From Acidicapsa dinghuensis (GTDB taxonomy: Bacteria; Acidobacteriota; Terriglobia; Terriglobales; Acidobacteriaceae): DNA of 64,000 nucleotides. The notes under the pieces were generated by a model. It did not search any database and was not told the DNA's origin. It saw only the letters and a program-made list of their open reading frames with translations. Where the stretch lies: positions 310,001 through 374,000 of the forward strand of contig NZ_JAGSYH010000005.1 of assembly GCF_025685685.1 (NCBI RefSeq). Direction: 5' to 3'. Within the stretch, counting starts at the first letter, position 1, and the number at the start of each line of letters is the position of its first letter. The translations under genes and the position numbers were made by a program. Below are positions 44,452 to 56,001 of this stretch, piece by piece.

Positions 44452-45732
44452 ATGCATCCTGCACACATCATCCTGGGTATCATCGTCGCTCTCAGCATCG
44501 CGTTCATGCTCGTGCGTCCACGCGGGATCGCCGAAATCTGGTGGGTTGGCAGCGGTGCGATTGCTCTCGTTGTTTTCCGCCTCATCCCGCTGCGCCTGGC
44601 AGGCAGCGCCATCGCCGAGGGAACAGATGTTTATCTCTTTCTCATCGGCATGATGCTGCTCTCAGAGCTGGCCCGCGAACACGGGGTCTTTGACTGGCTC
44701 TCCTCGGTCGCCGCACATCACTCACGCAGATCAGCCTCGCGTCTCTTCACCCTTATCTATCTCATTGGCATCGCCGTCACTGCTCTGCTCTCTAACGATG
44801 CCACGGCTGTCGTCCTGACTCCTGCCGTCCTCGCCGCCGTACGTAAAACTCGCGTCTCGCCATTACCTTATCTCTTCGCCTGCGCGCTTATCGCTAATGC
44901 TGCATCTTTCATTCTGCCCATCTCAAACCCTGCAAATCTGGTCGTATACGACAGATCTATCCCGCCGTTGGCACACTGGCTTCTTGCCTTTGCCGCGCCA
45001 TCCATCGTTTCCATAGTTATCACCTATTGGACTCTGCGTTATCTCTTCAAAAAGGAATTGGCTGAAACCACCGACCCTGAAAGTGAAAGCGAGACCACAA
45101 ACGATTCGCTCTCACCATCTGGCAAGCTCGTTCTCCTCAGTATTGCGCTTACCGCAGTTATTCTTATCACTGCGTCCAGCCTGGGCAAAGATCTCGGCCT
45201 GCCCACCTGCCTCTGCGCCGTGGCGTTCACTGCCTTCCTGTCCCTACGCACGCGCACCAGCCCCACCAGACTGTTGCGTGAAATCAGTTGGAGCACCATC
45301 GCTCTCGTTGCAGCGCTCTTCATCCTGGTCCGCGCCGTCGAAACCATCGGAGCATTGCACATGTCTCAGGCCGCGCTGCTCTGGGCAGTTCATCAAAATG
45401 AGTGGATCGGAGCCCTGGTTGCAAGCTTCGCGGTTGGCATCGCCAACAACATCGTCAACAACCTGCCTCTCGGACTCATCGCCGGCTCTGCGGTTCGCTC
45501 AACTCATACCAGCGGCCTGCTGGCTCTATCGGTGCTGATCGGCATTGATCTCGGCCCCAACCTATCCGTCACAGGATCGCTCGCGACGATCCTCTGGCTC
45601 ATCGCCCTGCGCCGCGAACAGCAACACGTTACCTTCTGGAGCTTCCTGCGCATTGGCGTCATAGCAATGCCTCTCGCTCTGTTTGGAGCGATAGGCACAG
45701 CCTTGCTTACGCACATGCTTCTTGGTGGATAG
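44452..45732 (+). CDS. ArsB/NhaD-superfamily ion permease
   Basis: 426-residue inner-membrane transporter with about 11-12 helices and the anion/arsenite permease pattern: GTDVYLFLIGMMLLSELAREHGVFDW, LLSNDATAVVLTP, NAASFILPISNPANLVVYD and a second-half repeat (GIANNIVNNLPLGLIAGSA, DLGPNLSVTGSLATILWL). ArsB proteins export arsenite; related ones are Na+/H+ antiporters or SLC13 carriers. No arsR or arsC is adjacent, so the substrate stays open. Divergent from rhaT and convergent with the RND operon (2-nt gap). Confidence 0.85.
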   Translation: MHPAHIILGIIVALSIAFMLVRPRGIAEIWWVGSGAIALVVFRLIPLRLAGSAIAEGTDVYLFLIGMMLLSELAREHGVFDWLSSVAAHHSRRSASRLFTLIYLIGIAVTALLSNDATAVVLTPAVLAAVRKTRVSPLPYLFACALIANAASFILPISNPANLVVYDRSIPPLAHWLLAFAAPSIVSIVITYWTLRYLFKKELAETTDPESESETTNDSLSPSGKLVLLSIALTAVILITASSLGKDLGLPTCLCAVAFTAFLSLRTRTSPTRLLREISWSTIALVAALFILVRAVETIGALHMSQAALLWAVHQNEWIGALVASFAVGIANNIVNNLPLGLIAGSAVRSTHTSGLLALSVLIGIDLGPNLSVTGSLATILWLIALRREQQHVTFWSFLRIGVIAMPLALFGAIGTALLTHMLLGG

Positions 45733-45734
45733 CG

Positions 45735-48700
45735 TTACATCCGCGCCGTCCGTCGCCGTGTCAGCTCGTAATACACTACCGGCGTCACCACAAGTGACAG
45801 TACAACTGACAGAAGCACACCGCCAATCACCGCTATGGCCAGTGGCTGCAGCATCTGTGAGCCGGAACCGATCGCAAATGCAAGCGGTAACATGCCACAG
45901 ATAGCTGCAATCGCCGTCATCACAATCGGCCTGAGTCTTCGTTGCGCTGCCTGTCGCATCGCCTCTCGCGGATCAGCCCCCAACCTGCGCAGCTTCTCGT
46001 CCGCATCCAGCAACAAGATGCCATTTTTTGCCACAATGCCAATCACCATAATCAGTCCGATAAAGCTCGCAACATTAAACGTAGTCTTCGTAACCAGCAA
46101 TGCCAGCACCACACCCGCAATCGACAACACCGAGCTAGTCAGAATCGCCACTGGCGCGGAGAAGTTCCGAAACTCCGCCAGCAGCACACCAAACACCAGC
46201 ACCAGCGCCATCAGCAGCACACGCAATAGCTCACGAAATGACTTCTGCTGCTCCTCATACGTCCCGCCATACTGCACACGAACATTCGAAGGCAGATGCA
46301 AGCTATCGACGGTCGCTCGTACCTTCGCCATTGCCGTCCCCAGGTCGCTGCCCTCAAGCCGCCCTGTCACAGCAATCATTTGCTGCAAGTTCTCCCTGCG
46401 AATCTCGTTTTGTGGTGGCAGTTGTGTGATCTTTGCTATTGCGTCAAGCGTTGCTGTATGCCCACTCGATGAGTTGAAGACCGTATTCGCGATCGCATCA
46501 AGCGATGCTCGGTTCTCATCAGGCAGCCGAATCCGTATCGTATAGGGTCTTCCGTTCACAATCATCGGATCAGGAATCGGCAGCCCATCCAGTATCGATG
46601 TCGCGTCTTCGGCGATCTCCTGTGTGGTAAACCCATATTGCGCCGCCAGCACCGGGCTTATCTCGAAATTCGTCGCCGGACCACTGATCGTATTGTCAAT
46701 TCCGTTCTCCGTATCTACCACACCTGGAATCTTGTTAATCGCATCCTGCACTCGCGGCCCAAGCTGGTTCAATAGATTCTGATCATCGCAGATGAGCTTG
46801 ACCTGAATAGGTTCCGGCGAATTCGAAAGATCGCCGATCATATCCTGCAACACCTGCGTAAACTCAACATCCAGCTCCGGCTCAGTCTTCTTGATCTCAT
46901 CGCGTACATCCGCCATCACATCATCAATTGCTCGTGAGCGCTTGCTCTTCAGCTTCACCGTAAAGTCGCCCGTGTTGGCTTCTGTCACTGCCGCCAGCCC
47001 CATTTGCAGCCCCGTACGGCGTGAGGTAATTTCCACCTCCGGCGTGTCGCGCAATATCTGCTCCACGTGCTGCAGCACGCGATTCGTCTCCGTCAGCGAA
47101 CTCCCCGCTGGCATGATGTAATCCAGAACAAATCCGCCCTCATCCATCTCCGGCAACAAATCTGAGCCCAGTTGCGTGTACGTGAAGTACCCGCCAATCA
47201 CAAGCACTCCGCAAGCAACCGCAAGCACGACCGGATTTCGCAGCGAAAAGTCCAGTGCCTTTGAATGCACCGCCAATATCCTGGTCATGAACTTACCGGC
47301 CGAGTGTACATGCAGGGCATCCACGTCTTCAAGATCACGCGCGACCTCCTCGCCCTTCTCTTCACCCGGCAACGCAATCGCCAGCGCAGGAGTCCACGTA
47401 AGCGCCAGCAGCAGAGACGTCAGCAAAGCGGCTGTCATCGTCACCGCCAGCGCGCGAAAGAAACTGCCCGTCACTCCCGTTACTGCGATCAACGGCAGAA
47501 ACACCACCACCGGCGTGATCGTTGAGCCAATCAAAGGTGTCGTAATCTCACCGAGCGCCTGGCGCACCGCGCCAACACGCGACTGGCCCGACTCGCGATG
47601 CACGGCGATGTTTTCCACCACTACGATCGCGTCATCAATCACCAACCCAATCGCAGCAGCCAGTCCGCCCAGTGTCATCAGATTAAAGCTCTGCCCAATC
47701 GCCCACAGAAAGAGAATCGTAATCGCAACTGTAACTGGAATCACCAGTCCCGCAATCAGCGACGAGCGCCAGTCGTGCAGAAAGAGAAACAGGATCACGC
47801 AAGCAAGTACAAGGCCAATCAAAATCGCGTCGCGCACCGAACTGATCGAATCCCGCACCAGTTGCGATTGATCGTAAAACGGCGTCAACCTCACACCATC
47901 CGGCAGCGTCTTCTGTAAACGCGCTACCTCCTGCGCAACAGCATCCGCTACCTGCACCGTGTTCGATGAAATCTGCCGCGCAATATTCAACAGCACAGCC
48001 GGCTTGCCGTTTGCTGTAACCGTGGTGTAGACAGGCATCACTCCAGGCTCAACCGTTGCCACATCCGCCACTCGAATCGGCGCACCACCCGCCGTCGTCT
48101 TAATCGTCAGATTCGCTAGTTCGTCGACACTATGCGCCTGCGCGCCAATAAGCCCCAGTACAAGCTGGTGATCGCTCTCATACAAGCCCGGCGAATCGAT
48201 AATGTCCGCCGCCTGCACAGCGTTCTGCAGATCCAGCATCGTAATGCCCGTCGCCTGCAGCCGCGCCAGATTCGGAATGATGTGGAACTCCGGCACCTTG
48301 CCACCCTGCACCACCACTGTGCTCACACCATCCACGCGATTCAGCGGCGGCTTAAGCTCGTACGTAGCCAGATCCCAAAGCTCCGTCTGCGAAACCGTCT
48401 TCGCTCCACGATCATCCGCTGTTAGTGCATAGCCCAAAATTGGAAACGTCGCAAACGTTAGCCTGTTCGTAGTGATACGTGCCGACGCCGGCAGCGTCTG
48501 TTGCACCTTGGCAAGCGCCGCATCCGTCAGCTGCAGCGTCGTCACCATATCAACGTTCCAGTTGAAAAACAGGCTTACTTCCGCCGATCCGCGGCTCGTG
48601 ATACTGCGCACCGTCATCAGCCCTGGCACCGAATTGACCGCATCCTCAATCGGCTTGGTGATCGTCACCTGCATCTGCTCTACGGGCATGACGCCGTTAT

Positions 48701-48872
48701 CCACGCCAATCACTACACGCGGAAAATTCGTGTCCGGAAACACCGCGATCGGCACCTGCAACGCGGCGTAGATGCCCGCAATCGTCAGTGCGGTAAGGAA
48801 GAAGAAAATCGGCGTGGAAAGCCGCTTGAGCCAGAACGGCTTCTCGGCCAATGGCATCACCGCAAGGCTCAT
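45735..48872 (-). CDS. RND-family efflux pump, inner-membrane transporter
   Basis: 1045-residue proton-driven exporter (AcrB/MdtB-like). Twelve TM helices with two large periplasmic loops. Seen: N-terminal TM FFFLTALTIAGIYAALQVPIAVFPDTNFP, the TM4 proton-relay DD in GLVIDDAIVVVENI (hydrophobe-type rather than the heavy-metal-type single D), LPEMDEGGFVLDY in the loop, and GIVAKNGILLLDADEKLR in TM10-11. Last gene of the operon; its start overlaps the stop of the MFP gene by 4 nt. Confidence 0.95.
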   Translation of the reverse strand: MSLAVMPLAEKPFWLKRLSTPIFFFLTALTIAGIYAALQVPIAVFPDTNFPRVVIGVDNGVMPVEQMQVTITKPIEDAVNSVPGLMTVRSITSRGSAEVSLFFNWNVDMVTTLQLTDAALAKVQQTLPASARITTNRLTFATFPILGYALTADDRGAKTVSQTELWDLATYELKPPLNRVDGVSTVVVQGGKVPEFHIIPNLARLQATGITMLDLQNAVQAADIIDSPGLYESDHQLVLGLIGAQAHSVDELANLTIKTTAGGAPIRVADVATVEPGVMPVYTTVTANGKPAVLLNIARQISSNTVQVADAVAQEVARLQKTLPDGVRLTPFYDQSQLVRDSISSVRDAILIGLVLACVILFLFLHDWRSSLIAGLVIPVTVAITILFLWAIGQSFNLMTLGGLAAAIGLVIDDAIVVVENIAVHRESGQSRVGAVRQALGEITTPLIGSTITPVVVFLPLIAVTGVTGSFFRALAVTMTAALLTSLLLALTWTPALAIALPGEEKGEEVARDLEDVDALHVHSAGKFMTRILAVHSKALDFSLRNPVVLAVACGVLVIGGYFTYTQLGSDLLPEMDEGGFVLDYIMPAGSSLTETNRVLQHVEQILRDTPEVEITSRRTGLQMGLAAVTEANTGDFTVKLKSKRSRAIDDVMADVRDEIKKTEPELDVEFTQVLQDMIGDLSNSPEPIQVKLICDDQNLLNQLGPRVQDAINKIPGVVDTENGIDNTISGPATNFEISPVLAAQYGFTTQEIAEDATSILDGLPIPDPMIVNGRPYTIRIRLPDENRASLDAIANTVFNSSSGHTATLDAIAKITQLPPQNEIRRENLQQMIAVTGRLEGSDLGTAMAKVRATVDSLHLPSNVRVQYGGTYEEQQKSFRELLRVLLMALVLVFGVLLAEFRNFSAPVAILTSSVLSIAGVVLALLVTKTTFNVASFIGLIMVIGIVAKNGILLLDADEKLRRLGADPREAMRQAAQRRLRPIVMTAIAAICGMLPLAFAIGSGSQMLQPLAIAVIGGVLLSVVLSLVVTPVVYYELTRRRTARM

Positions 48873-50164
48873 TTGTCGTCTCCACCTGCGGCTTTGTCAT
48901 CGTCGCCCTTATCAGGCGCACCAATCTTCACCTTCGTGCCCTCATCCAGGCCAAATCCCCCGGCAGTCACCACCATGTCCTTCGATGTAATGCCCGAAAG
49001 AATCTGCGTTTGATCCTCGGTCTGGACACCAACAGTCACCGGCCGTTTCTTCACCGTGCTGTCTCCACCGATCACCAACACATATTTACCGGCCGCACCT
49101 TCTGCCCCACCTGCGCTCGAGAGAATCGCCGACGTTGGTACCAGCAGCGCGTTCGGAACCTCGCGACCAGTCATTGTCACCTGCACCGGCGTGCCTGCTT
49201 TCAATTGGTTCTTCGGATTCTCGATCCGAACCCAGACTTCAATCGTCGTGCTTCCAGCATCCAGCGCCGGACTAATCAATGCAATCTTCGCCGGAACCTC
49301 TTTATCCGCACCCTGAACTTGCAGACTCGCTTCGCCGCCCACCTTCAATTGCTGTGCAAGCAACTGCGCAACATGCACCTTCGCAATTAGCGCCGATGTA
49401 TCCATAACCGTAATCACTGGCGTTCCCGCTGTCGCAGTTTCGCCCGCAAACAATGGTCGATCCGTCACATATCCACTGATCGGGCTGTGAATCTCTGTGT
49501 AGCTCAACTGCGCCTTTGCGCCTTCAAACTTTCCCTTTGCTGATTGAAGCTGTCCTTTTGCGGATTCTAGTGCCGCCTGATTGCTCGTCTTCTGCACCGC
49601 TTCAAAATGCTGCTTTGCGAGGTCATATGCAGACTGCGCCTGCACCAGCGCCGCCTTTGCCGTATCAAGATCACGCCCCGGAATAGCCCCCTGCGCAAAC
49701 AACTGTGTGCGAGCTTTCACGATCGTTTCGCTGAGATCGAAATTCGCCTTCGCCTGCGCAAGATCAAGTTGTGCCCGCGTGTAGTCTTCAGGAACAGTCG
49801 CCTTAGTTGCGGTCTGATAGGACGCTTCTGCCGATGTGTAGGCACCCTCATTGTCCATCGCCGCAGCGGAGAGATCTCGATTCTCCAGCACCACCAGCAA
49901 TTGTCCCTGTTTCACCTTGTCGCCGCGCTGCACAACGAATTTCTCCACTGGCGCCGTCACCTTCGGCTCAATCGCCGCCTGAGCCAGCGGAGACAACGTC
50001 GCATCCGCATGGATCTCCGCGGCAATCTCACCAACTTTGGGCGTCGCAGCTTCCACTGCCGCAACAGCAGCCGGTGTCTCCTCTGCCTTCTTGCACCCAG
50101 CCATTGCCAGCATCACGCACGCCAGCGCCACACCAGTCATCGATTGCATCTTCCATGCCTTCAT
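48869..50164 (-). CDS. RND efflux membrane-fusion (adaptor) lipoprotein
   Basis: 431-residue periplasmic adaptor linking the RND pump to TolC. Lipoprotein signal with lipobox LAMAGC (Cys at about residue 24). Lipoyl/barrel-sandwich segments (VTAPVEKFVVQRGDKVKQGQLLVVLENRDL and ISGYVTDRPLFAGETATAGTPVITVMD, cited in part) flank a long alpha-helical hairpin (residues about 110-205). The C-terminus is acidic and Lys-rich. Overlaps neighbours on both sides (4 nt and 1 nt). Confidence 0.94.
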   Translation of the reverse strand: MKAWKMQSMTGVALACVMLAMAGCKKAEETPAAVAAVEAATPKVGEIAAEIHADATLSPLAQAAIEPKVTAPVEKFVVQRGDKVKQGQLLVVLENRDLSAAAMDNEGAYTSAEASYQTATKATVPEDYTRAQLDLAQAKANFDLSETIVKARTQLFAQGAIPGRDLDTAKAALVQAQSAYDLAKQHFEAVQKTSNQAALESAKGQLQSAKGKFEGAKAQLSYTEIHSPISGYVTDRPLFAGETATAGTPVITVMDTSALIAKVHVAQLLAQQLKVGGEASLQVQGADKEVPAKIALISPALDAGSTTIEVWVRIENPKNQLKAGTPVQVTMTGREVPNALLVPTSAILSSAGGAEGAAGKYVLVIGGDSTVKKRPVTVGVQTEDQTQILSGITSKDMVVTAGGFGLDEGTKVKIGAPDKGDDDKAAGGDDK

Positions 50165-51669
50165 CAGTTCGTTCCCGTGGGCCCTTGCTCAGTCAAGCTC
50201 TGGCCTGTCAGCAGTTGTAGATTGGCAATCGCCGCTTCATATCGCGTCATGCCGTCTTCTTGGGCGTTCTCCTGCGCTGCCACTGTCGTCTGCGCATCCA
50301 CCACTTCCAGCACTGTTGCCTCGCCAGCTGTATAGCGCAACCGCGCCAGCCGCAGGCTTTCGCGCGCCATATCAACACTCTTCGCAAGGGACCCCAATTG
50401 ATCTCGCGCCACCGTTGCCTCTGCATACGCCGTGTCCAGGTCGGCGATCAATCGCTTCTGCGTATCCGTCAGCGTCACACGCGCCACATCTCTCTGCGCC
50501 TCTTTTTGCTGCACACGATGGTGGGTCGCCAGCCAGTCCCACACCGGAATATCCAGCGTCGCCGTGGCTTCGTAGCCGAGGTTCCGAGTACCATCCGGCG
50601 CATGCACCGCAAACTGCGGCGCATCGATACCATACGCATACTGCAGCGACAGATCCGGCAAATACGCGGCTCGTGCGCCCTGCACATCCAGATTTGCTGC
50701 CTTCAGCGATGCCAGCGCGCTCTTAAGCTCCGCGTTGTTCTGTGCCGCCAGCTGCTGAATATCTTCTTTGCTTATCAGTGGCGCCGGCATCGCAAACGCG
50801 GTCAACCGAAACTTCGTCCGCGGATCCGGATACACCAACACTGCAAGTTCCAGCTTTGCTCGATCGCTATCCAGCCGCGCATTTGCAAGTTCCCGCTCAC
50901 GGCCCTGCTGTTCCAGCTGTGCCTTCACCACATCGGCATGAGCCACTTCGCGCGCTTCTTCCCGCTTTTGTGTATTTGAAGTGAAGTCGGCAGCCTCATT
51001 GGCCGCCCGTTGCGCTATGTCGACTTTGCGATCAGCGGCCTGGCTTCCGTAGTACAGGCTCACAACCGTGGCCACCAGCCCGCGTCGTGCAATCTCAAGC
51101 TCGGCATTCGCTACCGTAGCTGCAGCGGTAGCATGCGCCAGAGTATTGAATCCCTGCACACCGATCGTCTCCGTCACTGTACCCTGACTCGTATATTCGT
51201 GCACGGAGTTGTTCGCAATGAATCGCGGTGTTCCTGCCGACGCTGCCTGGCCGGCGCTCGCATTTGCGGAGCCAGTAGCTCCCTGGGCCCCTTCGGTATA
51301 CAGATACTGGTTGTGGTACACCACGCCGGGCAACAGCGCTGACCTAGCAATCGAGCGATCCAGCATAGCTGTCTTATTCGCTGCCACTGCGGCCGCAAAC
51401 GCCGGTTGATTCTTTTCCGCTTTTGCAATTGCATCTGCAAGCGTCAGCAATGGTTCAGTGTCGCCGTTCGCAGCATTTGCACTTTGCGGCGAAACAACGA
51501 CCTCGGCTTTCTGTGCCTGCGGAGTAACCGTTGTGCTGGTCTGCGCTCTCGCAGCCAGCACAGCGCTAAACACTCCTGCACTAAGCATCACTGCTCTTCC
51601 AAATGCCATCCATTTTGAATAGTGGGTGACAGCCATTAAGCCGTCACCCATCAGCAACTGTTTCTTCAT
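50164..51669 (-). CDS. TolC-family outer-membrane efflux channel
   Basis: 501-residue outer-membrane factor completing the tripartite pump. Signal peptide around residues 22-42 (AFGRAVMLSAGVFSAVLAARA), two OEP repeats of long helices (ADAIAKAEKNQPAFAAAVAAN, AARAELEIARRG-like region, second copy ADLDTAYAEATVARDQLGSLAKSVDMARESLRLA in pieces) and the RYTAGEATVLEVVDAQTT motif. Starts within the YncE-like gene stop by a 4-nt overlap. Confidence 0.93.
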   Translation of the reverse strand: MKKQLLMGDGLMAVTHYSKWMAFGRAVMLSAGVFSAVLAARAQTSTTVTPQAQKAEVVVSPQSANAANGDTEPLLTLADAIAKAEKNQPAFAAAVAANKTAMLDRSIARSALLPGVVYHNQYLYTEGAQGATGSANASAGQAASAGTPRFIANNSVHEYTSQGTVTETIGVQGFNTLAHATAAATVANAELEIARRGLVATVVSLYYGSQAADRKVDIAQRAANEAADFTSNTQKREEAREVAHADVVKAQLEQQGRERELANARLDSDRAKLELAVLVYPDPRTKFRLTAFAMPAPLISKEDIQQLAAQNNAELKSALASLKAANLDVQGARAAYLPDLSLQYAYGIDAPQFAVHAPDGTRNLGYEATATLDIPVWDWLATHHRVQQKEAQRDVARVTLTDTQKRLIADLDTAYAEATVARDQLGSLAKSVDMARESLRLARLRYTAGEATVLEVVDAQTTVAAQENAQEDGMTRYEAAIANLQLLTGQSLTEQGPTGTN

Positions 51670-52712
51670 TGACCCGCCACAACCACCGTGAACGTATTCG
51701 GCAACACCGAAGGACGAGGCCTCGGATTATTCGCAGTCGCAGCAGGCCGCGGACCAAACTGTGCAGTGACCAGATACACCTTGCCTGTCGCTGCATCAAG
51801 AGCCATCGTACGTGCGCGCGGCTCCGTTGTAAGCGTCTGCACAACGTTGTACTGACTGTTGCTCGCATCCACTACCGTCAACGTGCCTTCCCCATTCGAC
51901 GAAAACGCCAGCTTCGTCTTCGGATCATACGCAGCCGCGTCCGGACCATCTCCAATCGCAGGCGTCGCGATCACCTTGCCGCTCTCATAATCCACCACAG
52001 CCATCACTTTGCCGTCACACACGGAAAATAACCGGTGCCCGCTACGATCGATCGCCATACCCGAGGGTGATTCGCACTTGCCCAACGACCACGTCGCCGT
52101 CACCTTGGGACTCTTCGCATCCAGACGCACAATCTCGTTCTTATCCTCGATGTTGTCGTAGACATTTCCTTTGCCATCCGCGGTCGGAAACTCCGGCTTC
52201 CCCGGCAGCGCCACCGTTGCAATTACCTTGCGCGATGCCGTATCGATCACCGTCACATCTTTGCTGCGCCCATTGAAGGCCCACACCGTCTTCGTTACCG
52301 GCTCAAACACAATGCCATCCGGATTCGTCCCGGCAGGCACCGTGCCCACCGTCTGCAAGCTCTGCCGGTCAAAGATCACCACCTGGTTGGCGCCTCCATC
52401 GCTGATGTATCCGAACTTTCCGTCCGCATCCAGCGCCACGCCATGTGTTCCCTTCAATCCCGTGATGGCCCCCACCGGCTTCCCAACTTCCAGGTCAATC
52501 ACCTCAACGCGCTGGCCATGCGTCACATACAAACGATGCGCACTCGAGTCCGCGAGCAGATAATCCCATCCGCCCTCGCCGCCGATCGTCCACTTCGCTT
52601 CGACCTTGTAACTCTTCTGCGCCTGTGCTGAATAGACGGGCAACAGCAGAGTCGCGACGACACCGCACGCAGCGGCCCAGCCTGACATCGAATGCATCCT
52701 CGGAAGTTTCAT
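51666..52712 (-). CDS. YncE-like seven-bladed beta-propeller protein
   Basis: 348-residue exported protein (signal peptide GWAAACGVVATLLLPVYSAQA). The rest is a YVTN/YncE propeller with repeated units such as HRLYVTHGQRVEVIDLEVGKPVGAI, FGYISDGGANQVVIFDRQSLQTVGTV and AFNGRSKDVTVIDTASRKVIATV. YncE proteins are periplasmic, iron-regulated in E. coli and bind DNA in vitro; a role here is unknown. It is the first gene of the RND operon and overlaps tolC by 4 nt, which suggests a function linked to efflux. A PmrA-like box lies 59 nt upstream. Confidence 0.9.
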   Translation of the reverse strand: MKLPRMHSMSGWAAACGVVATLLLPVYSAQAQKSYKVEAKWTIGGEGGWDYLLADSSAHRLYVTHGQRVEVIDLEVGKPVGAITGLKGTHGVALDADGKFGYISDGGANQVVIFDRQSLQTVGTVPAGTNPDGIVFEPVTKTVWAFNGRSKDVTVIDTASRKVIATVALPGKPEFPTADGKGNVYDNIEDKNEIVRLDAKSPKVTATWSLGKCESPSGMAIDRSGHRLFSVCDGKVMAVVDYESGKVIATPAIGDGPDAAAYDPKTKLAFSSNGEGTLTVVDASNSQYNVVQTLTTEPRARTMALDAATGKVYLVTAQFGPRPAATANNPRPRPSVLPNTFTVVVAGQ

Positions 52713-52770
52713 GATTCCCTTTCTTTGCGGACACGCCTTGCGCCGCTCAACTTAACCTCGCATACGCCAC

Positions 52771-52787
52771 CTTAAGGCAGCATGAAG
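52771..52787 (-). promoter_or_regulatory. PmrA-like box upstream of RND operon
   Basis: Read on the minus strand: CTTCAT-GCTGC-CTTAAG, two half-sites with 11-bp periodicity as recognised by OmpR/PmrA-type regulators. Closely matches the box upstream of the adjacent response-regulator gene. A further CTTAAC lies at 52751-52756. Confidence 0.65.
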
Positions 52788-52805
52788 AAGCACGCAAAAG
52801 ATGAG

Positions 52806-54275
52806 TTAGTCTCCCAACATCTCAGCAACCCCCGACGCCATGGGAATCCTCACCGAGACACATGTTCCCACCCCAATCTTGCTCTCAATTTTTATCCCGC
52901 CCCGCGCGCGCACCACGATTGCCTTACAGATCGCCAATCCAAGCCCAGTACCTCCACTATGTCTACTCCGGGAAGGATCGCCTCGCGAGAATCTTTCAAA
53001 CACATATGGCAGCTCAGTCTCCCCTATTCCATCGCCATGGTCCTGAAACTCGAAAATCGCGGAACTTTCCTCTTCGCGAACCTGCACCCTGACCTCAGAC
53101 CCGCTTGCACTATGCTGGATCGCATTCATCAGCACATTCCTACAGAACAACTTGAATTGCTCCGGCTCAATAGCAATCGCCTGCTGTGTAACGGTATTCG
53201 CGCTGCCTTCATCAAGCTCTATCCTCACCTGCTTCAACTCGGCCATCATCGCAAGCTCGTCTATCACCTCGCGTAGCAATGAAATGCCTTCTGCAACAGC
53301 GGCCTTCCCCTGCAATGGCGCCTGCTCAATCCGAGCCAGAGTCAGCATCTGAGCCACCATTGCCTCCATGCGTTCGCAATCGCCGAGTGCGCGCTCCAGT
53401 CCAGCGATGTATTCCGTCTGACTGCGCGGCTTCATTCCAAGCAGCTGCAACGAAGACTTCACCAGTGCCACGCCCGTCTTCAACTCGTGTGCCGCATCGC
53501 CGACAAACCTCTGCTGCTCTTCAAATGCCTCCCTAAGTCTCCTCAGTACAGCCTGCATCGCCTCCGTCAGAGGAGCGAGCTCTCTTGTTGCCTGCGCCGT
53601 CGGAGGTGGTTCAAACTCCCACGCATTTACCGTCACCCGCGATGCAGCTCCAGCCAGTTCAAGCAGTGGCCTCAGTCCGCGATGCAGCAGCCATAACATC
53701 AGCAGCGCGGTCAGAGCCATCACCACGACACTGCTCACCGCATAAAAACTTACAGACTGCAGCACCGCATCCCACACACGATCCATCTGCGCACCATACA
53801 CGATGCTGACGGTCCGCTTCACACCGCCGCCCTTTTCTCCTGGATCAACTACGCGATAGCCCGAGATGCGAATCATCCCATAATGCCGCCCACGCAGATT
53901 CGCACCAAAGTGCTCCTCGCCGTCTGGTCCATGTCCATGCCGATGTCCTCCTCGATCGAGTTTCTCGACGCTGCCCAATCCTGTCCAGTTCTCAGATCGT
54001 CCTACCAGGCGTCCGCTATCATCACGCACTTCGTACACGTCGTCCGGTGGCGCACTCAACTGCGAGCCATCCAGCATCACATTGTCGCCGGGATCTTCCG
54101 CATCCTGTACCGCACCCAGAATCGAATCGGCACGCCCGCGAAGCAGCACATCAAAGGCGCGAAAGTGCGTGTGACGTTCATACAGGAAAGCAGCAGTCGT
54201 CACACAGAGAGCCGCTGCCAGCTCTACAACCAGAACCATGCCAATCAACCGGCGAACGATCGAATACGGCTTCAT
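52806..54275 (-). CDS. Membrane sensor histidine kinase with His-rich periplasmic loop
   Basis: 489-residue kinase. TM1 about residues 10-30, periplasmic domain about 31-173, TM2 about 174-198, HAMP-like linker, dimerisation/phosphoacceptor helix with H263 in GDAAHELKTGVALVKSSL, and a HATPase domain (FCRNVLMNAIQHSASGSEV, IFEFQDHGDGIGETELPYVFERFSRGD, GGTGLGLAICKAIV). The H-box lacks the usual HELRTP proline. The periplasmic segment at 111-132 is His-rich (HRHGHGPDGEEHF), hinting at metal or cation sensing. Overlaps the regulator gene by 4 nt; located upstream of the RND operon. Confidence 0.93.
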   Translation of the reverse strand: MKPYSIVRRLIGMVLVVELAAALCVTTAAFLYERHTHFRAFDVLLRGRADSILGAVQDAEDPGDNVMLDGSQLSAPPDDVYEVRDDSGRLVGRSENWTGLGSVEKLDRGGHRHGHGPDGEEHFGANLRGRHYGMIRISGYRVVDPGEKGGGVKRTVSIVYGAQMDRVWDAVLQSVSFYAVSSVVVMALTALLMLWLLHRGLRPLLELAGAASRVTVNAWEFEPPPTAQATRELAPLTEAMQAVLRRLREAFEEQQRFVGDAAHELKTGVALVKSSLQLLGMKPRSQTEYIAGLERALGDCERMEAMVAQMLTLARIEQAPLQGKAAVAEGISLLREVIDELAMMAELKQVRIELDEGSANTVTQQAIAIEPEQFKLFCRNVLMNAIQHSASGSEVRVQVREEESSAIFEFQDHGDGIGETELPYVFERFSRGDPSRSRHSGGTGLGLAICKAIVVRARGGIKIESKIGVGTCVSVRIPMASGVAEMLGD

Positions 54276-54952
54276 GCAGTTCGCCCGCCCGGCAACAACA
54301 GTCGATAGCCACGCCCGCGCAGCGTCTCAATCCGGTCCTGCCCGCCAATCCGCTTGCGCAGATTCGACACATGCACCTCGATCACATTCGAATGATGCTC
54401 CCAGTTATAGTCATACAGATGCTCCAGCAACTCCTGCTTCGAAACCACCGCGCGCGGCCTGTGCATCAGGTATTCGAGTATCCGGTACTCCATCCGTGAC
54501 AATACTACGGGCTGCCCCGCAAGAGTGACAGTCTGCTCCAGCGTATTGACCTCAATATCGCCTTCCCGTAGCGTCGGATGCGCTGCTCCCTTGCCTCGCC
54601 GGATCAAAGCTTTAGCCCGCGCCAACAGTTCGCCCAGATCAAACGGTTTGCTCAGATAATCATCTGCGCCCGCATTCAGCAAGTTGATTTTCGATACCGT
54701 CTCCGAACGTGCCGTCAGAATCAGCACCGGCGTATTCACCGCGCCGGAACGCATGCGCTTCAGTACGCTCGCGCCATCCATCTTCGGCAACATCAGATCC
54801 AGCACAATCAGGTCATAACATCGCTCTGCAGCAAGCGCCGCGCCGGTCTCTCCATCTTCCACGCAATCCACCGCGTAACCTGGGCCCTCGCGAAACGCCG
54901 CCGCGATGTTTTCTGCCAACCGGGTTTCGTCCTCAACCACCAGAACGCGCAT
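54272..54952 (-). CDS. OmpR-family response regulator (QseB/PmrA-like)
   Basis: 226-residue regulator: receiver domain with phosphoacceptor D52 (LIVLDLMLPKMDG), T/K of the active site (ILTARSE, LSKPF) and an OmpR winged helix (LSRMEYRILEYLMHRPRAVVSKQELLEHLYD, VIEVHVSNLRKRIG). A GTG at 54970 opens the frame, but ATG 54952 begins the conserved MRVLVVEDE. A PmrA-like box lies 24-40 nt upstream, suggesting autoregulation; the same box precedes the efflux operon. Confidence 0.95.
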   Translation of the reverse strand: MRVLVVEDETRLAENIAAAFREGPGYAVDCVEDGETGAALAAERCYDLIVLDLMLPKMDGASVLKRMRSGAVNTPVLILTARSETVSKINLLNAGADDYLSKPFDLGELLARAKALIRRGKGAAHPTLREGDIEVNTLEQTVTLAGQPVVLSRMEYRILEYLMHRPRAVVSKQELLEHLYDYNWEHHSNVIEVHVSNLRKRIGGQDRIETLRGRGYRLLLPGGRTA

Positions 54953-54975
54953 GCGGCAATTATCGGCCACGACAG

Positions 54976-54992
54976 CTTAAGTCAGCCTGAAG
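54976..54992 (-). promoter_or_regulatory. PmrA-like box upstream of response regulator
   Basis: Minus strand: CTTCAG-GCTGA-CTTAAG, matching the box at 52771-52787 at 14 of 17 positions. Eleven-bp periodicity of half-sites. Confidence 0.65.
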
Positions 54993-55028
54993 ACTCGGAA
55001 TTTATCAAAAGAACCGTCACAAAAATAA

Positions 55029-55056
55029 AAGCGCGGCTACGAAAGCAGCCGCGCTT
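55029..55056 (-). terminator. Intrinsic terminator of outer-membrane protein gene
   Basis: Perfect 10-bp GC-rich stem AAGCGCGGCT (55029-55038)/AGCCGCGCTT (55047-55056), 8-nt loop, followed on the minus strand by TTTTATTTTT. Located 20 nt after the stop of the minus-strand gene at 55078. Confidence 0.9.
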
Positions 55057-55077
55057 CAAAATCAATCCTTCTGGTTC

Positions 55078-56001
55078 TCAGAAAGGCATACGAGCTGTAA
55101 AAATCAACAGGTGATTGTTCGCATGAAATGAAGTGACTGCTATCTCTTCACCCGCACCAAACGTCAACCCAAGCCGTCCCGGTTTGCCGCTTGCATCGTG
55201 CCTCAGCGGAATGCGCCCGATAATCATCCCCGGCGTAGCATAGGTCGTCACCTTGCCGTCATTCGCTCCGCCCTTGAAGAAGCTCGAATTCAGCTCAACC
55301 TCCGGCCAGAAAAACCGCGCCGGCCCCTCTTTCGCCAGCCTGTACTGCGCCACATTGTTCCACGCAATCGTGTGCCCCAGCCCCTTGGCATTCGTAATCG
55401 GCAGCGACCCGCCGGCCGTCGTCGTCAGATCAAAATTGCCCCAGCCCTTACCCATCGCCAGCGTCGGAGTCACCACCGCGCAGCAGCTTCCATTGCCGTT
55501 CTTGCCCGTCGGAATCGAGGCCGCGAAAAACGCAGTAATAATCGCATTCCCACGCTCCTCATTGCGGGCGAAAAAACGATATTTCGAGTTGAACGAAACA
55601 TCGCCAAACCCGTCATTCGATCCCGGCGCATCATGGCTGATAAACGGTGGCACATTGAACAGCAGCTCAATATGTCTCTCCGGGATAATCTCCAGCCCCT
55701 TACCGTTTCCGTAGTTCCACGTATCCACCAGCTTCGTATTCGTCTGTCTCAAAAAATCCGCACGAAACTCCTGTTCCAGTCTCGGCGTCACCGTCACCAG
55801 CGGAGTAATCCAATGTGGCTGTTCCGCCTGCGTTGCGCTCACCCGCCCTTCGTACCGTTGCCACCAGCTACCGTCCTGAGCGTATGCGCTGTGGCTAACA
55901 AATCCTAATGCCCCAAGCACGGCAAGAGAGAACGTAAATAGTCTCCGCCGCGATGACACACGGCGCTTATTGAAACGGCAAAGCGAATCAAGACTCATCA
56001 T
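55078..56001 (-). CDS. Outer-membrane beta-barrel protein, PF13557-like
   Basis: 307-residue exported protein with signal peptide (RRRLFTFSLAVLGALGFVSHSAYAQ). The rest is beta-rich with a C-terminal aromatic end (LLIFTARMPF), typical of outer-membrane barrels; FGDVSFNSKYRFF and ITAFFAASIPTGKNGNGSC resemble the putative MetA-pathway/transporter group. Exact function unknown. Own terminator at 55029; upstream of the two-component genes on the same strand. Confidence 0.75.
   Translation of the reverse strand: MMSLDSLCRFNKRRVSSRRRLFTFSLAVLGALGFVSHSAYAQDGSWWQRYEGRVSATQAEQPHWITPLVTVTPRLEQEFRADFLRQTNTKLVDTWNYGNGKGLEIIPERHIELLFNVPPFISHDAPGSNDGFGDVSFNSKYRFFARNEERGNAIITAFFAASIPTGKNGNGSCCAVVTPTLAMGKGWGNFDLTTTAGGSLPITNAKGLGHTIAWNNVAQYRLAKEGPARFFWPEVELNSSFFKGGANDGKVTTYATPGMIIGRIPLRHDASGKPGRLGLTFGAGEEIAVTSFHANNHLLIFTARMPF

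Follow-up and report, generated by a model that had tools for sequence, protein, structure and literature searches.

A conserved tandem box probably links an OmpR-family two-component system to a YncE-RND efflux operon in Acidicapsa dinghuensis and its relatives

The window, a 64-kb stretch of the 6.17-Mb genome of Acidicapsa dinghuensis (Acidobacteriaceae), contains six minus-strand genes, all oriented in the same direction, in the order response regulator, histidine kinase, YncE-like protein, TolC-type channel, membrane fusion protein and RND permease (RR-HK-YncE-TolC-MFP-RND). The features of the locus, from upstream to downstream, are the following:

55028..55057, minus strand: terminator-like hairpin with a T-rich tail, just upstream of box 1
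54976..54992, minus strand: box 1, CTTCAGGCTGACTTAAG, 5' of the response regulator gene; in 61/78 orthologous promoters
54959..54964, minus strand: candidate -10 hexamer GATAAT of the regulator gene, 11 bp past box 1 and 6 bp before the ATG at 54952
54272..54952, minus strand: OmpR-family response regulator, receiver and winged-helix DNA-binding domains
52806..54275, minus strand: sensor histidine kinase, its sensor domain extracytoplasmic and PAS-like (PDC)
52771..52787, minus strand: box 2, CTTCATGCTGCCTTAAG, between the kinase and YncE genes; in 65/70 orthologous gaps
52754..52759, minus strand: weak candidate -10 hexamer GAGGTT, 11 bp past box 2, with G in place of the conserved A12 and A14
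51666..52712, minus strand: YncE-like (YVTN) beta-propeller protein, N-terminal signal peptide recognised by eye
50164..51669, minus strand: TolC-family outer-membrane channel
48869..50164, minus strand: RND periplasmic adaptor (membrane fusion protein), TIGR01730 at 209.4 bits (cut-off 94.9)
45735..48872, minus strand: RND permease, HAE1/MdtB-like, with VIDDAIVVVEN in the TM4 region

The predicted start of the regulator is the ATG at 54952, where its orthologues start, and not the GTG at 54970. The hairpin divides the regulator from the gene at 55078-56001 (minus strand), being weak evidence when taken alone, as two terminator-like sites were found against 2.0 expected in shuffles. This upstream gene encodes a secreted-looking protein of 307 aa with no Pfam or NCBIfam match. 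At the other end of the cluster, an ArsB/CitMHS-type anion transporter (44452-45732, plus strand), scoring above the Pfam ArsB cut-off but below those of NCBIfam, is convergent with the RND gene.

Both domains of the regulator (PF00072, 93.9 bits, cut-off 30.2; PF00486, 80.8 bits, cut-off 26.2) assign it to the OmpR/PhoB family. Its best NCBIfam match is PmrA (NF007928), at 201.7 bits and thus below the cut-off of 330; the PhoB and BaeR models gave 170.1 (cut-off 296.2) and 130.3 bits (cut-off 380), respectively. The kinase best matches cztS_silS_copS (TIGR01386), with 185.1 bits below the cut-off of 292.55. The permease reaches 751.2 bits with Pfam PF00873 against a gathering score of 28 and stays below the cut-off of the heavy-metal RND model TIGR00914 (479.7 versus 701.45 bits); it is closest to multidrug permeases of the MdtB/AcrB type, with MdtB as best PDB match. 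The propeller is YncE-like only, missing the cut-offs of both NF052280 (51.5 versus 400) and PF21783 (27.0 versus 27.1), and its profile matches PDB 3vgz.

The initial annotation had pointed to two near-identical boxes with the 11-bp spacing of OmpR-family dimers. Both lie where it had placed them, on the minus strand, and their half-sites do start 11 bp apart; the near-identity stands at 15 of 17 positions by our count, and not at the 14 given. Box 2 falls inside the 93-bp gap between the kinase and YncE genes. Allowing up to two mismatches, the two boxes are the sole matches in the 64 kb, with 0.04 matches expected from dinucleotide shuffles of the window and two matches in none of 100 shuffles. 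Genome-wide, CTTMAK-N5-CTTAAG has six matches at five places, and the reversed control likewise six; the wider pattern YTTMAK-N5-YTTAAK has 13 matches versus 12 in the control, and another wider-pattern scan of the same genome 23 versus 19. All five genomic places are intergenic according to a simple gene caller, versus two of four distinct control places. The genome scan proposed earlier as a check thus returned a pattern about as frequent as chance, so that the evidence raising the box beyond chance is comparative and comes from the relatives. Among 36 of these, the exact consensus gave 33 matches versus 23 in the control, 14 of the 33 being at the two-component/pump locus. With the exact consensus near the control level, and the wider patterns at it, a wider regulon is not claimable from such a scan, and we rejected a genome-wide regulon drawn up in this way.

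Further boxes exist in the genome. A perfect CTTAAG-N5-CTTAAG (C14:255355-255371; L201:4356-4372) stands 5' of a second YncE-like gene and is followed after 11 bp by TATGCT, and an upstream box of at least 10 bits was found in 6/9 loci of this gene and its orthologues, own genome included. Another (C10:1024103-1024119; L202:4104-4120) is flanked on one side by a different OmpR-type two-component system and on the other by a divergent gene encoding a secreted-looking protein of 260 aa. The latter box and one near an ABC permease (C11:482868) were left uncounted, because a clear -10 is missing at the proper distance or the orientation is wrong.

For the comparison, loci were picked by gene arrangement, not by the box, among the matches listed; 80 were fetched, making 81 with the window. 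The regulator-upstream set comprised 78 sequences after exclusion of L073 (cut by Ns), L092 (no regulator match) and L142 (regulator inside the operon, behind YncE). The YncE-gap set comprised 70, with L073, L142, L143, two loci without YncE and six with divergent YncE dropped. De novo motif search by EM in each set alone recovered CTTCAG-N5-CTTAAG from both, with log-likelihood ratios of 528.5 and 564.8 versus 51.6 and 58.4 for shuffled sets. When each set was scored with the matrix of the other at a threshold of 6 bits, matches appeared in 65/70 YncE gaps and 61/78 regulator promoters (17/78 being without a box), versus 1/70 and 1/78 in shuffles and 0/70 in windows inside the kinase gene; both boxes were found in 49/69 loci, and these counts, like all those given below, ignore kinship and are inflated by relatedness. 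Kinases at the compared loci are only 35-55% identical to that of the window and the box is still kept, and thus it outlasts its surroundings. Since the half-sites are nearly palindromic, reverse complements of the same sequences also score (52/70 and 52/78), for which reason they were discarded as a null control and the orientation of the box is less certain than its presence.

A -10-like hexamer begins 10-11 bp past the box. In the 65 YncE promoters with a box, A12 is kept in 58, A14 in 50 and T16 in 57, and in TolC promoters T11, A12 and T16 are found in 16/19, 14/19 and 16/19 cases; in the window itself, the YncE promoter has a poor -10. Within 52600-55150, no sigma-70 promoter combining a -35 with a -10 hexamer was found. 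This anatomy suggests that the box occupies the place of the -35, as in PhoB-type activation, where a tandem direct repeat, the pho box, stands in for the -35 at a distance of about 10 bp from the -10. In 38/61 regulator promoters, 21-25 bp separate the end of the box from the ATG (23 bp in the case of box 1), which puts the ATG at the expected transcription start, and the regulator promoter is probably leaderless.

In many relatives, TolC-MFP-RND is inverted relative to YncE or located apart from it. A box of 11-25 bits precedes TolC in 29/29 rows of inverted operons, corresponding to 24 distinct loci (L236=L305, L243=L306, L245=L307, L246=L308 and L250=L309 being duplicates), and a separate analysis found it in 19/19 inverted operons. 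Where TolC is directly behind YncE, it has its own box in one of seven loci (L263); in L261, with the order YncE-RR-HK-TolC, a box again stands before TolC. Five loci with too little flank were unscored in this TolC analysis, and those without a TolC or YncE match or with TolC below 45% identity were left out; as a control, 37 loci were shuffled five times each, and the highest score passed 11 bits for two of them. In a second family within the class, the related regulator is without Asn196, and three loci are ordered RR-HK-TolC-MFP-RND-YncE; in L394, L397 and L398 of this family, a CTTAAG-type site of 13-17 bits lies between kinase and TolC. These three represent a sister two-component group with the recognition helix SNVIEVYISGLR. 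No match of at least 13 bits came from four further regulator loci outside the family, of which one is truncated by its contig end. In small-genome members belonging to the same genus (L136-L141, L273, L275-L277), YncE and the regulator are divergently oriented, and wherever the pump was located, the regulator is the first gene of RR-HK-TolC-MFP-RND. As the box moves with the genes, natural promoter rearrangements are available for study.

We consider it quite likely that the OmpR-family regulator is autoregulated and also activates YncE and the RND pump, through a box of the PhoB/PmrA type located 10-11 bp ahead of the -10. The phosphorylated regulator would bind CTTCAG-N5-CTTAAG, with its 11-bp spacing, as a head-to-tail dimer in the position otherwise taken by a -35, and would from there activate two promoters. 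One would be the probably leaderless promoter of its own regulator-kinase genes; the other, internal and situated between kinase and YncE, would serve the yncE-tolC-mfp-rnd operon. Binding, phosphorylation-dependence, activation over repression and leaderless transcription are what we infer. The pump is very probably controlled by the adjoining sensor, because the box accompanies the genes also after their relocation or inversion.

A single transcript from the regulator promoter, with box 2 only boosting or retuning its distal part, is possible but on balance doubtful. Six co-directional genes, the short kinase-YncE gap and the lack of a listed terminator-like site there are consistent with it, whereas box 2 is kept more widely than box 1, has its own conserved -10 in the relatives and recurs as an own box before separated operons. 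Read-through and an internal promoter can coexist. It is rather unlikely that the regulator represses at the boxes instead of activating: nothing specific favours repression, the sign of regulation being unreadable from sequence, but the box takes the place of the -35, with its distance to the -10 constant at 10-11 bp, no -35 was found, and a box in this place is in the position of PhoB-type activators.

The box might also be bound by another regulator, either a paralogous OmpR-type or a CadC-like one, with the two-component genes as merely one of its targets. The genome has 13 further OmpR-type regulators, and the box at C10:1024103 adjoins another two-component system. The YncE box, however, tracks the presence of the kinase: it is kept in 18/20 genomes with the two-component genes elsewhere, but in 5/20 with no kinase orthologue at E<=1e-70 (Fisher p = 7e-5; shuffles 0/40), although these five do keep it. 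In the genomes with two-component genes elsewhere, 17 of the 18 regulator promoters scored have a box, as does one more (L367) that was judged by eye. A looser regulator search in the genomes without the kinase would have changed the split to 21/23 versus 2/17; this reclassification was rejected because in the regulator relatives from G191 and G361 the place of Asn196 is taken by Ala or Ser, and a third relative, in G002, was unreadable. Several kinase matches (those in G261, G302, G385, G087, G393 and G238) have one internal stop codon, which may be the true gene end or signify broken genes. The protein itself also argues against another regulator. Asn188, Asn196 and Arg210 are the base contacts reported for PmrA (PMC4660055), and all three are kept in 79/79 regulator orthologues, window protein included, whereas the Asn188 and Asn196 pair occurs in 0/13 OmpR-type paralogues of the window genome. 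We therefore regard binding by another regulator as improbable. That the boxes are due to chance or to shared ancestry without function is highly improbable: the genome-wide frequency does equal the control, but the motif was rediscovered independently in two sets, is conserved amid diverged genes and stands before TolC in inverted operons. The link proposed in the initial annotation, in which the box ties the two-component system to the YncE-RND operon, is thereby upheld, with the motif emerging from both sets, following the inverted pump and staying with YncE.

Its description of the box as PmrA-like is fair in part. The spacing supports it, as does the conservation of the recognition residues in all orthologues; the CTTCAG of the first half-site and the score below the PmrA cut-off do not. 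The position of PmrA His195 is Ser in 78/79 orthologues. The PmrA box of Klebsiella pneumoniae pbgP is described with CTTAAT/CCTAAG hexamers separated by 5 bp (PMC3973317). Set against the PmrA-box pattern CTTAAG/XTTAAT with a 5-bp spacer, the spacing and the second hexamer fit, and the first hexamer has the consensus CTTCAG.

The stimulus deserves separate comment, as a metal or other cation had been suggested from a His-rich periplasmic loop of the kinase. The loop exists (GGHRHGHGPDGEEH), but none of 17 aligned relatives has one there; at least 8/81 kinase proteins reach four His in 15 residues, at differing places. Being private to the window kinase and unconserved, the loop gives no basis for metal sensing, which we rejected, and the likeness of the pump to the MdtB/AcrB type likewise lends a metal or cation stimulus no support. 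The predicted structure of the sensor domain (pLDDT 89.6) matches extracytoplasmic PAS/PDC domains, including those of WalK, CusS and PhoQ, with the CusS sensor domain among the top matches (Z 9.0, rmsd 3.8, 130 aligned). The predicted PAS/PDC-like fold names no ligand. As the stimulus, we would favour an organic or envelope-active compound over a metal ion.

Across the compared loci, the genes occur as RR-HK-YncE-TolC-MFP-RND, YncE-RR-HK-TolC-MFP-RND and RR-HK-TolC-MFP-RND-YncE, and with an inverted pump. A speculative idea, which we put forward very tentatively, is that the YncE-like propeller works in the periplasm as a component of the pump system, capturing substrate or signalling back to the sensor kinase. 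The two-component pair, the propeller and the RND pump would then make up one module. Its coherence across families of the class, amid shuffled gene order, would come mainly from the common box, and in the window genome it would include the second YncE-like gene, on another contig.

Among the open-licence papers listed in searches on the PmrA box, YncE, RND efflux, two-component systems and Acidobacteria, none is listed as naming this regulon. Efflux proteins of Granulicella are described as rising under high sugar, the available text of the source naming no such regulator (PMC7074687). The present analysis defines a putative, testable regulon for little-studied soil bacteria, comprising a sensor, its DNA site, a beta-propeller and a multidrug-type pump, and the box together with its spacing can serve in searches for further targets.

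Overall, the predicted system is of a known kind, an OmpR-type pair that regulates itself and, through a tandem 11-bp box, drives a pump operon. It shares with PmrA/PmrB (BasR/BasS) of enterobacteria the OmpR-family regulator, head-to-tail hexamers 5 bp apart and the base contacts, and differs in its targets (an RND pump and a beta-propeller), in CTTCAG, in the replacement of His195 by Ser and in the sub-cut-off score. With PhoB and its pho box it has in common a tandem direct repeat at the place of the -35, whereas the sequence of the repeat and the target genes are different. BaeSR is an OmpR-type system controlling an MdtB-like RND pump, and is alike in both respects; the BaeR score sets the window regulator apart, and to our knowledge the BaeSR/MdtABC operon has no YncE. 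Finally, heavy-metal systems of the CusRS/CzcRS type resemble it in having two-component genes beside an RND operon, in the best match of the kinase and in the structural match of its sensor domain to CusS, but the window kinase remains below the cut-off, the permease is HAE1/MdtB-like and the His-rich loop is not conserved.
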